This document shows, in pieces, positions 3,811 to 55,011 of a DNA stretch of 64,000 bases. The notes under the pieces were generated by a model. That model was not told the DNA's origin and did not search any database. It saw nothing but the letters and a program-made list of their open reading frames with translations. The translations under genes were made by a program, and so were the position numbers. Each line of letters starts with the position of its first letter. Position 1 is the stretch's first letter. The DNA lies in contig JACUUV010000005.1 of assembly GCA_014859095.1 (NCBI GenBank), positions 44,065 to 108,064 of the forward strand, in the 5' to 3' direction. The DNA is from Clostridia bacterium. GTDB lineage: Bacteria; Bacillota; Clostridia; Peptostreptococcales; Acidaminobacteraceae.

Positions 3811-3907
3811 GGGGACAGATGGGTTCTGGTGTGCCTTCTGATCTTCAAAATCAGTACGGGGGGTTAAGAGCTTCCTGGGTGGGTTCGATTCCCACGTGTC
3901 CCCGCCA
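3811..3907 (+). tRNA. selC: tRNA-Sec (anticodon TCA)
   Basis: 97 nt; anticodon stem ctgat/atcag with loop CT-TCA-AA (TCA at 3845-3847), long variable arm, T-arm GTGGG-TTCGATT-CCCAC, GGGGACA/TGTCCCC acceptor, 3' GCCA. Confidence 0.95.
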
Positions 3908-50113: not shown

Positions 50114-51370
50114 TCAATTCATTTCAATATATTTCTGGTATTTTTGAAAATCCTGTTCTCTGCATTCAATATTCAAGACCGTACCGTCATTCTCATATTT
50201 GATCTCTTTGACACAAGCATTGTCATTCAAATATGAAACTAGCGCTCCTTCAGTAAAAGGAATCCGCATTGTACACTCAACATAGTCGGTAAAAACAAGA
50301 TCGGAAATCTTTTTTTCAAGTATATCAATTCCAATTCTCTCTTTAGCGGAGATGTATACACCTCGTTCATCAACATTTGGCAGCTCATCAAGTACCAGTT
50401 CCGACTTGTTGAAAACATTGATCACCGGAATCTGATCTGCTCCAATTTCTTTAAGTGTCTCAAGAGTAACTTTCATTTGTTCTTCGTAATTTGGATTGGA
50501 ATAATCCACCACATGAAGTAGAAGGTCTGCATGAATCACTTCCTCAAGTGTCGATCTGAAAGCCTTGATGAGTCCATGTGGCAGATTACTTACAAATCCA
50601 ACTGTATCGGATAAAAGAAATCTGCGTTTGTTTTTCATTACAATTTGTCTAACTGATGTTTCCAGTGTGGCAAACAACATATTTTTCTCAAGGACAAATT
50701 TTTCAGAGCTTCCATTGTTTTCTGATACGAAAGCGTTGAGAAGTGTTGATTTTCCAGAATTCGTGTATCCTACAAGTGCAATTGAAGGCAATTCTGAACT
50801 TACCCTTCTTTTTCTTTGCGTGGTTCTTTCATTTTGGATACTCTGCAAAGCCCTCTCCATCTCAACAATCTTTTGCTCGGCTCTCCTTCTATCGAGTTCC
50901 AGTTTCTTTTCACCGACACCTTTGTTTTTCGTGCCAACGCCTCCCGATTGCCTACCCAGCGCTGTATATGAGCCAATCAGTCTAGGCAACAAGTATTGAA
51001 CTTGCGCCATTTCAACTTGAAGTTTGGCCTCTCTAGTCCTGGCACGTTTTCCAAAAATCTCAAGGATGAGTGCCGTTCGATCAAAAACAGGCATATTGAG
51101 TGCGTTTTCAAGGTTTCTCAGTTGTGATGGAGACAATTCATCATTGAATATGACTTTTTCTGCATTCACAGCTTCAGCGTCCAGTTTGATCTCCATTATT
51201 TTTCCACTGCCAACATATGTGACAGAATGTTTGTTTCTCATATTTTGTTCAACCTGACCCACAACTGTATAGTTGCAAGCTTTAGCTAGATTTTTTAATT
51301 CTTCCATCGAATTTTTAAATTCGTGATTGTTACCGGCGTTTACGCCTACTATAAGTACTCTTTCGTTCAT
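50114..51370 (-). CDS. hflX: GTPase HflX (ribosome-splitting factor family)
   Basis: FNDELSPSQLRNLENAL, GRQSGGVGTKNKGVGEKKLELDRRRAEQKI, ALVGYTNSGKSTLLNAF, LSDTVGFVSNLPHGLIKAFRSTLEE. Confidence 0.96.
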   Translation of the reverse strand: MNERVLIVGVNAGNNHEFKNSMEELKNLAKACNYTVVGQVEQNMRNKHSVTYVGSGKIMEIKLDAEAVNAEKVIFNDELSPSQLRNLENALNMPVFDRTALILEIFGKRARTREAKLQVEMAQVQYLLPRLIGSYTALGRQSGGVGTKNKGVGEKKLELDRRRAEQKIVEMERALQSIQNERTTQRKRRVSSELPSIALVGYTNSGKSTLLNAFVSENNGSSEKFVLEKNMLFATLETSVRQIVMKNKRRFLLSDTVGFVSNLPHGLIKAFRSTLEEVIHADLLLHVVDYSNPNYEEQMKVTLETLKEIGADQIPVINVFNKSELVLDELPNVDERGVYISAKERIGIDILEKKISDLVFTDYVECTMRIPFTEGALVSYLNDNACVKEIKYENDGTVLNIECREQDFQKYQKYIEMN

Positions 51371-51451
51371 ATGGACCTCCCCTTTCTTTGATTGCGACAG
51401 CTCTTATCAAATACGCAAATGTTGCGGCATCTGGGAAAGGTTGTCGAACGG

Positions 51452-51496
51452 TTAGTGAATAATAATTACTCTACATAATTTGCATAACTTCAACAC
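51452..51496 (-). CDS. Candidate leader peptide uORF2 upstream of hflX (GTG start: MLKLCKLCRVIIIH)
   Basis: AAAAGGAGG SD 7 nt upstream of GTG 51496; stop TAA 51454-51452; ATG at 51502 also in frame but too close to SD. Confidence 0.5.
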   Translation of the reverse strand: MLKLCKLCRVIIIH

Positions 51497-51524
51497 GTTC
51501 ATACCTCCTTTTATTTTTTTGTTC

Positions 51525-51560
51525 AAAAAAAACAGCCTACAAGTCAACGAGGCTGTTTTT
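51525..51560 (-). terminator. Strong intrinsic terminator inside the hflX leader
   Basis: Minus strand AAAAACAGCCT-cgttgacttgt-AGGCTGTTTTTTTT. Confidence 0.8.
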
Positions 51561-51570
51561 CATATGCAAT

Positions 51571-51597
51571 AAAAATAGACGCGAAAGCGCCTATTTT
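51571..51597 (-). terminator. Second hairpin with T-tract in hflX leader
   Basis: Minus strand AAAATAGGCGC-TTTC-GCGTCTATTTTTATT. Confidence 0.6.
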
Positions 51598-51677
51598 ATC
51601 AATTATTTAATTACGGCTGTTCACATGATTGATGGGCACAAGAAAAAAACTGTTTCAGCCCCGATATTCAGTTGTAA

Positions 51678-51701
51678 TCAACTCAATCTCAATTTCATCA
51701 T
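51678..51701 (-). CDS. Candidate leader peptide uORF1 upstream of hflX (MMKLRLS)
   Basis: GAGGTG SD followed by ATGATGAAATTGAGATTGAGTTGA. Confidence 0.55.
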   Translation of the reverse strand: MMKLRLS

Positions 51702-51732
51702 GTTGGCACCTCGTTTACATTATTATACATAT

Positions 51733-51761
51733 ATACTACCACAAACCGCTCATTGCTTCAA
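51733..51761 (-). promoter_or_regulatory. Putative promoter of the hflX leader transcript
   Basis: Minus strand TTGAAG - 17 nt - TAGTAT (TATAAT also present at 51727-51722). Confidence 0.5.
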
Positions 51762-51764
51762 TAA

Positions 51765-52433
51765 TTATAAGAAAAATTCAACTTTGATGCACTTACCAAT
51801 CACTTTCACATCAATAGGATTGAAGACTTGTGGAGTATGATCATTAATACCTGTCAGCAGCTGCAACTTTCTATTTGAGTCCATTCTGACCATCCTGATT
51901 TGTCTGATACCACCGACTTCCAAATAATAGATGGAATCATTTTCCACAGTATTCATCATATGCACACTAATCACATCACTTTTTCTAATCCGAAGTCCTG
52001 GCAAATCAGATTGTTCTACTTTTACAAACATGATTTTCTCGAAATGAATACCATCTATTTTTTTGTGCACGATTGAAAGTTCCTTGTAATCCAGCACCTT
52101 ACCACTTGACGCTCCAGTTACAGGATATTTTTGAATAACCCCCGCGAGTACACTCTCCCACTGCGCATTTGGTGTTATCGGTTTGATAGCTTCTCTCACA
52201 GGTGCCGCCTTAACTTTGGTCTTTTCCGGCACAGGTTGATCGTCTGTGATGAACTGTATCTCCTCACCCATCACGCTAAGTATTTTCTCAGCCATATGTT
52301 CATTGATGACTTTTTTTCCTGATTCCACTTGGAGCAAGTAACTCAGCTGAATGCCAGCTTTCGCGGCCAGTTCCTTCTCGGTCATTTTTGCTTTGATACG
52401 AGCATCTTTTATTTTTTGTGCCAATCTATTCAT
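51765..52433 (-). CDS. XRE-type HTH regulator with C-terminal domain resembling a degenerate S24/LexA peptidase
   Basis: LAQKIKDARIKAKMTEKELAAKAGIQLSYLLQVESGKKVINEHMAEKIL; C-terminal GLRIRKSDVISVHMM...IYYLEVGGIRQIRMVRMD. Confidence 0.75.
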   Translation of the reverse strand: MNRLAQKIKDARIKAKMTEKELAAKAGIQLSYLLQVESGKKVINEHMAEKILSVMGEEIQFITDDQPVPEKTKVKAAPVREAIKPITPNAQWESVLAGVIQKYPVTGASSGKVLDYKELSIVHKKIDGIHFEKIMFVKVEQSDLPGLRIRKSDVISVHMMNTVENDSIYYLEVGGIRQIRMVRMDSNRKLQLLTGINDHTPQVFNPIDVKVIGKCIKVEFFL

Positions 52434-52481: not shown

Positions 52482-52510
52482 TTGACTTATACCCCCAAAG
52501 GGTATATAAT
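52482..52510 (+). promoter_or_regulatory. copA promoter
   Basis: TTGACT (52482-52487) - 17 nt - TATAAT (52505-52510). Confidence 0.8.
52489..52505 (+). promoter_or_regulatory. CsoR-type operator 1 (ATACCCCCAAAGGGTAT)
   Basis: Palindrome with CCC/GGG arms lying in the spacer of the copA promoter. Confidence 0.75.
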
Positions 52511-52520
52511 TATATTAAAG

Positions 52521-52537
52521 ATACCCCATGTGGGTAT
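52521..52537 (+). promoter_or_regulatory. CsoR-type operator 2 (ATACCCCATGTGGGTAT)
   Basis: Second copy of the palindrome just downstream of the expected start site and before copA SD. Confidence 0.75.
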
Positions 52538-52551
52538 AGAAAGGAACTCAA

Positions 52552-55011
52552 ATGAAAACAGAAGTATTTCAAGTTGATGGAATGACTTGCGCTTCTTGCT
52601 CAAGTGCAGTAGAAAGAGCAACGAGAAAAATGGAAGGTGTCGATACATCAAATGTAAATCTATCCACTGAAAAATTGACCCTGACATATGATGAAGCGCT
52701 TATAGACGTAGCTAAAATTATGGAAACAGTAAAGAAAGCCGGCTACGAGGCTAAACCTATAAACAAAGACAAAAAAGTAAAATTACCGATTGAAGGCATG
52801 ACATGTGCCGCGTGTTCCCAAGCAATCGAAAGAAAACTTGGAAAAATGGACGGCATTGACTTTGTCTCGGTGAATTTGGCTACTGAAGCTGCTCAAATTG
52901 AATACAATCCGGATTTAGTACGTCTTTCTGAAATCAAACAAGCCATCTCTAAATTAGGTTATGTAGCAAAAGAAGCCGAAGTAAAACGTAATGTTGATGA
53001 AGACAAAATTCGAAAAGACAAGGAAATCAAAGAGATGAAGTTCAAATTGACTTTGTCTGTGATCTTTGCAATCCCACTATTTTATATTGCGATGGGACCT
53101 ATGATTCCGTTTGTAACTCTTCCACTACCAGGATTTCTTTCACCGGATCACAATCCACTTAATTTTGCTTTCGCTCAAATATTGCTGACACTACCAATCA
53201 TATGGGCTGGTCGAAATTTTTATACTGTTGGTTTCAGACAACTTTTTCACAGAAGTCCAAACATGGATTCTCTGATTGCCATTGGTACCTCTGCCGCACT
53301 TTTATATAGCTTTTTCTCAGTAGGCCAAATCATCACGGGTGACCACATGGCTGTTCATCATATGTATTTCGAAACAGCTGGAGTCATAATCGCACTTATT
53401 CTACTTGGTAAGACACTGGAAACCATATCAAAAGGGAAAACATCCGAGGCTATAAAAAAACTCATAGGACTCACTCCAAAGACCGCTATTGTCATTAATG
53501 GAGATGAAGAGATTGAAATGCCTGTCGAAGAAATCGAACTCGGTGACATATTGATTGTCAAGCCAGGAGGAAAAATTGCAGTTGACGGTTCAGTGATTGA
53601 AGGCTATTCCAGTATCGATGAATCCATGTTGACCGGCGAAAGTATTCCCGTAGAAAAAAATGTTGGAGACAAAGTTTATAGTGCAAGTTTAAACAAAACT
53701 GGTTCATTTAAATATAGGGCCGAAAAAGTCGGTGATGAAACAGCTCTTGCACACATCATAAAGTTGGTTGAAGAAGCACAAGGCAGTAAAGCTCCAATAG
53801 CTAGAATGGCTGATATTATATCTGGATATTTCGTACCGATCGTTTTCTTGATCGCTATTATTTCCAGCGCAATATGGTTTATATCAGGACAAGATATTGT
53901 TTTCACACTTAAAGTATTCATTTCAGTACTCGTTATAGCATGTCCATGTGCCCTCGGACTCGCAACTCCGACAGCAATCATGGTTGGAACTGGAAAGGGC
54001 GCAGAGCTCGGCGTACTCGTAAAAAGTGGTGGTGCTCTTGAAACGGCACATAAAATAGATACCATCGTTTTTGACAAAACAGGAACTCTTACAAAAGGTA
54101 AGCCTGAAGTAACAGATATTTATGCAGTCAATGGATTCAGCGATGCGGATATTATAACATATGCCGCCTCCGCTGAATACGGCAGTGAGCACCCTCTTGG
54201 AGAATCCATCGTCAAAAAGGGTCAAGAAATGAATATCCAGCGCTTCAAAACGGATGAATTCTTTGCAATTCCAGGTAGAGGCATCAAAGCAATGATCAAT
54301 CAAAGCGAAGTGCTTCTCGGCAACATTAAATTACTGCAGGATAATGGTATAGATCCTCTGGACCATCTCACTCAATTCGATCTTTATGCGGATGAAGGAA
54401 AAACGCCTATGCTACTGGCAATTGGCGGAAAAGTTGCAGGTATAATTGCTGCTGCCGATGTACTGAAAGACAATAGCATTGATGCGATAAAGAGATTGCA
54501 CAAGCTCAACATCAAAACCATAATGATTACTGGTGATCATAAAAAAACCGCCGGTGCAATTGCAAAATATGTTGGAATTGACGAAGTTTTAGCCGAAGTT
54601 TTACCTGGTGACAAAGCGGCTGAAGTCAAAAAGTTACAAGAAAGTGGTAGAAATGTCGCCATGGTCGGTGATGGAATCAATGACGCGCCTGCGCTGGCTC
54701 AAGCTGATATAGGAATAGCCATTGGATCTGGCACTGATGTGGCAATGGAATCAGCCGATATCGTTCTGATGAGAAGCGACCTTCTCGATGTTGTCACAGC
54801 CATTCAACTCAGCAGAAAAACGATCCGAAATATCAAACAAAACTTGTTTTGGGCGTTCATCTACAATATAATTGGCATACCTGTTGCGGCTGGAGTCTTG
54901 TATGCTTTTGGAGGACCACTTCTCAGTCCGATATTTGCTGCTGCCGCAATGTCCATGAGCTCAGTCTCGGTATTAACGAACGCTCTCAGATTGAAAACCT
55001 TTAAAATTTAG
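52552..55011 (+). CDS. copA: Copper-translocating P1B-type ATPase with two N-terminal HMA domains
   Basis: GMTCASCSS and [12 protein letters not shown] motifs, [53 protein letters not shown]. Confidence 0.96.

Follow-up and report, generated by a model that had tools for sequence, protein, structure and literature searches.

A probable two-gate leader, altered in its second gate, upstream of an HflXr-type GTPase gene

In the stretch of DNA analysed here (the window, 64,000 nucleotides from an uncultured Clostridiales bacterium), an hflX-type gene on the minus strand is preceded by two short upstream open reading frames (uORFs), intervening terminator hairpins and a conserved spacer. We consider it probable that the leader senses ribosomes at two gates in succession, of which the second is altered here, and that it controls a ribosome-splitting GTPase of the HflXr type. 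The locus would then be a two-tier version of the known hflXr attenuator, with a second tier that is either retuned or decaying in this organism. A family of leaders in which one arrest-peptide uORF follows another would illustrate how bacteria stack a transcriptional and a translational gate on one rescue factor. The parts of the leader, their conservation and the clade of the GTPase were established from sequence (Table 1).

Table 1. Features of the hflX-type gene and its leader, listed from the promoter-proximal end
Feature	Position	Strand	Basis or remark
Probable promoter, TTGAAG (51761-51756), -10 TAGTAT or TATAAT	51720..51761	-	Read directly; putative
uORF1 Shine–Dalgarno (SD), GAGGTG	51712-51707	-	Read from sequence
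uORF1, MMKLRLS, +X+ arrest motif K-L-R	51678..51701	-	Read from sequence; same in G001
Terminator-like hairpin T1, AAAATAGGCGC-TTTC-GCGTCTATTTT TATT	51568..51597	-	Folding, -9.9 kcal/mol
Terminator T2, AAAAACAGCCT...AGGCTGTTTTTTTT	51525..51560	-	Folding, -13.3 kcal/mol
uORF2 SD, AAAAGGAGG	51512-51504	-	Read from sequence; strong
uORF2, GTG start, peptide MLKLCKLCRVIIIH	51496-51452	-	14 codons + stop; G001 counterpart MFKLCRLRRVMIIH
CGTTCG, 5′ arm of outer lock helix	51450-51445	-	Pairs with TGAACG 51369-51364
CGACA, 5′ arm of predicted anti-mask (ON) helix	51446-51442	-	Pairs with TGTCG
Anti-SD, ACCTTTCC	51441-51434	-	8 bp with hflX SD (OFF state)
Inner stem-loop including CGCAA-CAT-TTGCG	51407..51433	-	Present in both predicted states
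Small hairpin, CGCAACATTTGCG	51426-51414	-	Noted in the initial annotation
TGTCG, 3′ arm of anti-mask helix	51399-51395	-	Neighbouring C51400 missing in G001
hflX SD, GGGGAGGT	51382-51375	-	Read from sequence
hflX start, ATG	51370	-	Read from sequence
hflX-type GTPase gene, second copy, HflXr clade	50114..51370	-	TIGR03156, 423.7 bits; tree

The gene and its clade

An initial annotation of the locus had named the gene as hflX, encoding a ribosome-rescue GTPase. The TIGR03156 match, with Pfam domains checked alongside it, identifies the protein as HflX, and phylogeny refines the assignment. In a tree of 69 proteins, the bootstrap of which fell short of full convergence, the window protein and Listeria HflXr (lmo0762 type) form one clade with support of 99/96. 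The other hflX of the same genome (G000:C94), whose product is 46% identical to the window protein, falls in a different clade with the other HflX proteins of the same family. On this placement, the window gene is a member of the antibiotic-inducible HflXr clade and not the housekeeping copy. In Listeria, HflXr confers inducible resistance to lincomycin and erythromycin, and its expression is under the control of a terminator and a uORF that encodes RLR (PMC6310831); the RLR uORF, MRYIRLRFPKNLCN, was seen in the sequence of the Listeria hflXr locus. The window gene resembles this known antibiotic-inducible ribosome-rescue factor and, by analogy, may itself be inducible.

The two uORFs and their counterparts in relatives

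From the promoter, the leader runs through uORF1, T1, T2, uORF2 and the spacer to hflX. The putative promoter lies at the 3′ terminus of the XRE/S24 gene upstream and is identical in sequence in G001, the only close sister (96% identical to the window); a consensus scan gave no match to it, and an Rfam scan of the window returned no riboswitch or leader family at the hflX leader. At the first gate, a ribosome bound by a macrolide or a related drug would stall at the K-L-R of uORF1, and by analogy with Listeria rli80 this stall would let transcription pass T1 and T2. Equilibrium folding predicts that both hairpins form at all ribosome positions on uORF1 (P = 0.87–0.94). Folding therefore leaves the first gate unexplained, and we infer antitermination solely from the Listeria precedent. 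A copy of AACAGCC near 51620 was considered as a first-tier antiterminator competing for the 3′ arm of T2, and folding gave no switch; inspection by eye of two relatives (L008 and L012) revealed no evident equivalent of this copy.

An SD-led uORF with the motif [KR][LIFV][KR] is found in 22 of 37 HflXr-like leaders versus 0 of 25 other hflX leaders (Fisher P = 3e-7, for loci that are not fully independent). The two-tier arrangement proposed in the initial annotation is borne out by five relatives (G001, G003, G011, G142 and G154), in which the order of +X+ uORF1, terminator, +X+ uORF2 and hflXr recurs with macrolide-type peptides in both uORFs. A locus from another family (L036) has a similar two-uORF layout with R-F-R and R-L-R. 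Two further loci were noted. One (L009, from G029, 5′ of hflX at 1501) has a single uORF, MLMIYFVKLRD, and a four-arm alternative fold like that of ermC, and its SD is predicted to be closed when naked (6.9 kcal/mol) and open with a ribosome at K-L-R (2.5 kcal/mol). The other (L072, 1303-1450) is an hflXr on the 25-kb Paraclostridium bifermentans plasmid pHD0315_2-5, where it adjoins an MFS transporter gene and rlmN; its uORF contains R-L-R and has FFLRLRG as its last residues.

The second uORF, its SD and its 14 codons plus stop are all present on the minus strand, as had been described, and read GTG TTG AAG TTA TGC AAA TTA TGT AGA GTA ATT ATT ATT CAC TAA. A start at the ATG at 51502 is disfavoured because the SD is too near and because the ATG of G001 sits at the GTG position. 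Frame, SD, length and stop are retained in G001, which has ATG in place of GTG, and the C-terminus RV[IM]IIH is common to both peptides. At the +X+ site, the window has K-L-C versus R-L-R in G001 and R-L-K in G003, and the macrolide arrest motif, present in uORF2 of all five relatives named above, is absent. Given the R-L-R of G001 and the R-L-K of G003, the motif was probably lost on the window's branch. The window peptide instead has Cys at codons 5 and 8 (two Cys and three Ile codons in all), and cysteine-codon uORFs have been described beside uORFC-6-1 (PMC8632094), as would suit a cysteine or general translation-stress attenuator and not a drug sensor. We regard such a function as very unlikely, given that the uORF2-type peptides of relatives contain no Cys or one and carry R-L-R, R-L-K or K-L-R, and that the controlled gene is a ribosome rescue factor.

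Comparison with G001 also separates the constraint on the spacer from that on the peptide. Only 3 of 81 spacer sites differ between the two, versus 48 of 165 four-fold sites of hflX (P = 5e-9), and the spacer is therefore under constraint. There are no differences among the 24 nucleotides of uORF1 and six among the 45 of uORF2, the latter comprising four amino-acid changes, one silent change and one start-codon change. Judged by these counts, the uORF2 peptide is freer than the spacer, yet its frame, length and C-terminus are kept. In a related genus (g9), the post-uORF hairpin has one two-sided change from A-U to U-A, and two mismatches at the same locus. With so few differences between their leaders, the window and G001 make a natural pair for testing directly what the loss of the arrest motif and the gain of a lock base do.

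Predicted switching of the hflX Shine–Dalgarno sequence

In the predicted uninduced fold, the hflX SD (8 bp) and start codon (6 bp) are both sequestered. The first of these helices is the pairing of ACCTTTCC with GGGGAGGT, which includes two G-U pairs; it had been proposed in the initial annotation at 51442-51435, one nucleotide away from its actual position. The second is the outer lock, CGTTCG/TGAACG, which in folding covers the start codon. The small hairpin CGCAA-CAT-TTGCG, also singled out earlier, forms the apex of a longer stem, CAGATGC.GCAA/TTGC.GTATTTG, which can coexist with the SD mask. We rejected it as the masking element, as it belongs to a stem found in both states; the element predicted to compete with the mask is the CGACA/TGTCG helix, which buries the anti-SD. 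Pairing of uORF2 (51486-51478) with the ATTTGCGTA arm (51420-51412) can be drawn in the window and in G001, and the energies do not support it.

The strength of the mask is ordinary for its composition: when the spacer is shuffled with its dinucleotides preserved, 107 of 300 and 145 of 300 shuffles cost at least as much to open as the real sequence at the two ribosome positions considered. That shuffled spacers mask the SD equally often would be expected if uORF2 and the mask were a chance product of the GGGGAGGT SD and a pyrimidine-rich spacer. We disfavour this origin as highly improbable, since the frame and the spacer are conserved and a like architecture with predicted switching occurs in nine relatives. 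The features that stand above chance are the conservation of the spacer, the uORF2 frame, SD, length and stop kept in G001, and the shift in SD accessibility with ribosome position.

This shift was computed by folding the RNA 3′ of the ribosome for each codon of uORF2 and calculating the opening cost of the hflX SD and start; all folding energies are ViennaRNA estimates. The ribosome footprint (16 nt) and the definition of the stall, with X of +X+ in the P-site, were fixed ahead of the profiles; on ErmDL, the ribosome stalls with X in the P-site and the second basic residue in the A-site (PMC8298421). In all nine relatives modelled, moving the ribosome from the stop back to the +X+ codon lowers the opening cost of the SD by 2.4–8.0 kcal/mol. 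Differences as large arise in 0–12 of 300 spacer shuffles, and the combined P with one locus per genus is about 7e-6. The usual profile is an SD that stays open up to the last one or two codons and then closes. In most relatives this open state extends over all ribosome positions before the final one or two codons, so that the +X+ codon does not stand out; closing at the end of uORF2 is compatible with a co-transcriptional switch that is thrown when a ribosome on the stop codon occludes one anti-mask arm.

These profiles suggest how the second gate would work. A ribosome finishing uORF2 would, at the stop, cover CGACA, leaving ACCTTTCC to pair with the hflX SD and shut off translation. If the ribosome were instead held further upstream, the CGACA/TGTCG helix could form and bury ACCTTTCC, thereby opening the SD. 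The logic of a uORF followed by an SD-masking hairpin is corrected accordingly, with predicted closing at the uORF2 stop and opening by a ribosome held upstream. The likeness to erm-type attenuators drawn in the initial annotation holds in part: the SD and start are masked in the predicted fold, but K-L-C breaks the arrest motif and the mask lies within the range of the shuffles.

The window shows the same closing at the end of uORF2 as its relatives, with a different profile before it. Its SD is closed (about 7–8 kcal/mol) at most positions, with a minimum of 3.8 kcal/mol at codon 12 versus 6.7–8.4 kcal/mol, and predicted opening is limited to P-site codons 12-13. The end-minus-minimum statistic, in which every position is eligible for the minimum as a correction for post hoc choice, is matched in 2 of 240 shuffles. 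At the counterpart of the stall codon of G001 there is no opening (7.5 kcal/mol versus 6.7 at the stop), and 241 of 300 shuffles do better. Base 51449 is G in the window and A in G001, where the A weakens the lock, and swapping single bases in silico to the G001 state attributes about 3 kcal/mol of the lock to this position. We therefore predict, because K-L-C replaces +X+ and the CGTTCG/TGAACG lock is stronger, that the window SD would open only when the P-site of the ribosome is near codon 12, within I-I-I-H.

Such a profile can be read in more than one way. The first gate may be live and the second decaying, with a uORF2 that lacks its arrest motif, a partly masked SD and a lowered ceiling on hflXr expression. 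K-L-C where relatives have R-L-[RK], the roughly 3 kcal/mol of extra lock from base 51449 alone and the absence of opening at the homologous codon all argue for decay, which we hold to be a reasonable minority possibility; the retained frame, SD, length and stop of uORF2, the strong conservation of the spacer, the preserved closing at the stop codon and the significant minimum at codon 12 argue against it. Retuning of the second gate to another arrest signal, located towards the uORF2 terminus (V-I-I-I-H), with a drug or signal specificity unlike that of the first, is also conceivable, though we would not expect it. It is consistent with the confinement of predicted opening to codons 12-13 and with the C-terminus shared with G001. 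V-I-I-I-H matches no known arrest peptide, though it may loosely resemble the hydrophobic IFVI of ErmCL, and codon 12 was picked out after the profile had been seen, albeit with a statistic that corrects for this choice. In ErmDL, stalling with telithromycin is abolished when the second Arg is lost, and stalling with erythromycin is spared (PMC8298421), which fits a changed specificity; drug stalling on the window's uORF2 could therefore still occur. A more specific and rather unlikely proposal is a serial AND gate of two arrest peptides, one acting on transcription and one on translation, in which the second has diverged from +X+ to a new C-terminal signal and the two gates sense different conditions.

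Known leaders and the gene neighbourhood

Among the nearest described counterparts of this leader is hflXr (lmo0762)/rli80 of Listeria monocytogenes (Duval 2018, PMC6310831), which shares with the window the protein clade, a promoter-proximal uORF with an R-L-R-type motif, a terminator ahead of the gene and a second, housekeeping hflX in the genome. The Listeria leader, however, is a transcription attenuator with one 14-amino-acid uORF, for which no second uORF or SD-masking gate is described. Upstream of hflX, uORFC-6-1 (PMC8632094) likewise combines an Arg-Leu-Arg uORF with structure 3′ of the uORF start, and it is resembled by the f3 relatives (IRLRG-stop and IRLRK-stop). It is a single uORF affecting transcription, mainly in Bacillales, whereas uORF2 of the window has no R-L-R and lies downstream of a further uORF and terminators.

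The vmlR leader of Bacillus subtilis (PMC9226507) also serves a resistance factor and combines transcription attenuation with a hairpin that partly sequesters the SD, but it uses one three-codon uORF for both layers and its target is an ABCF ATPase. In the erm translational attenuators (ermC, ermD) and the two-leader ermB (PMC8274638), a drug-bound ribosome stalled on the leader similarly decides which hairpin holds the SD, and ErmDL uses +X+. Their products are methyltransferases, in contrast to the GTPase here, and the window leader has a terminator gate upstream and is predicted to close when a ribosome occupies the stop of uORF2. No two-gate, two-uORF hflXr leader was found in the open-licence papers searched.

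The XRE/S24 (LexA-like) regulator gene lies directly upstream of the leader (51765-52433, minus strand). Homologues with 42–90% identity lie upstream of hflXr in G001, G003, G029 and G142, which suggests a link between the regulator and hflXr. Beyond it, the inverted repeats TATACCCCCAAAGGGTATA and ATACCCCATGTGGGTAT at 52488-52537, ahead of a copper-type P-type ATPase gene (52552-55011, plus strand), look like a candidate metal-repressor operator. Elsewhere in the window, a selenocysteine tRNA gene (3811-3903, plus strand; Rfam RF01852, 68.4 bits) indicates that the organism probably makes selenoproteins.
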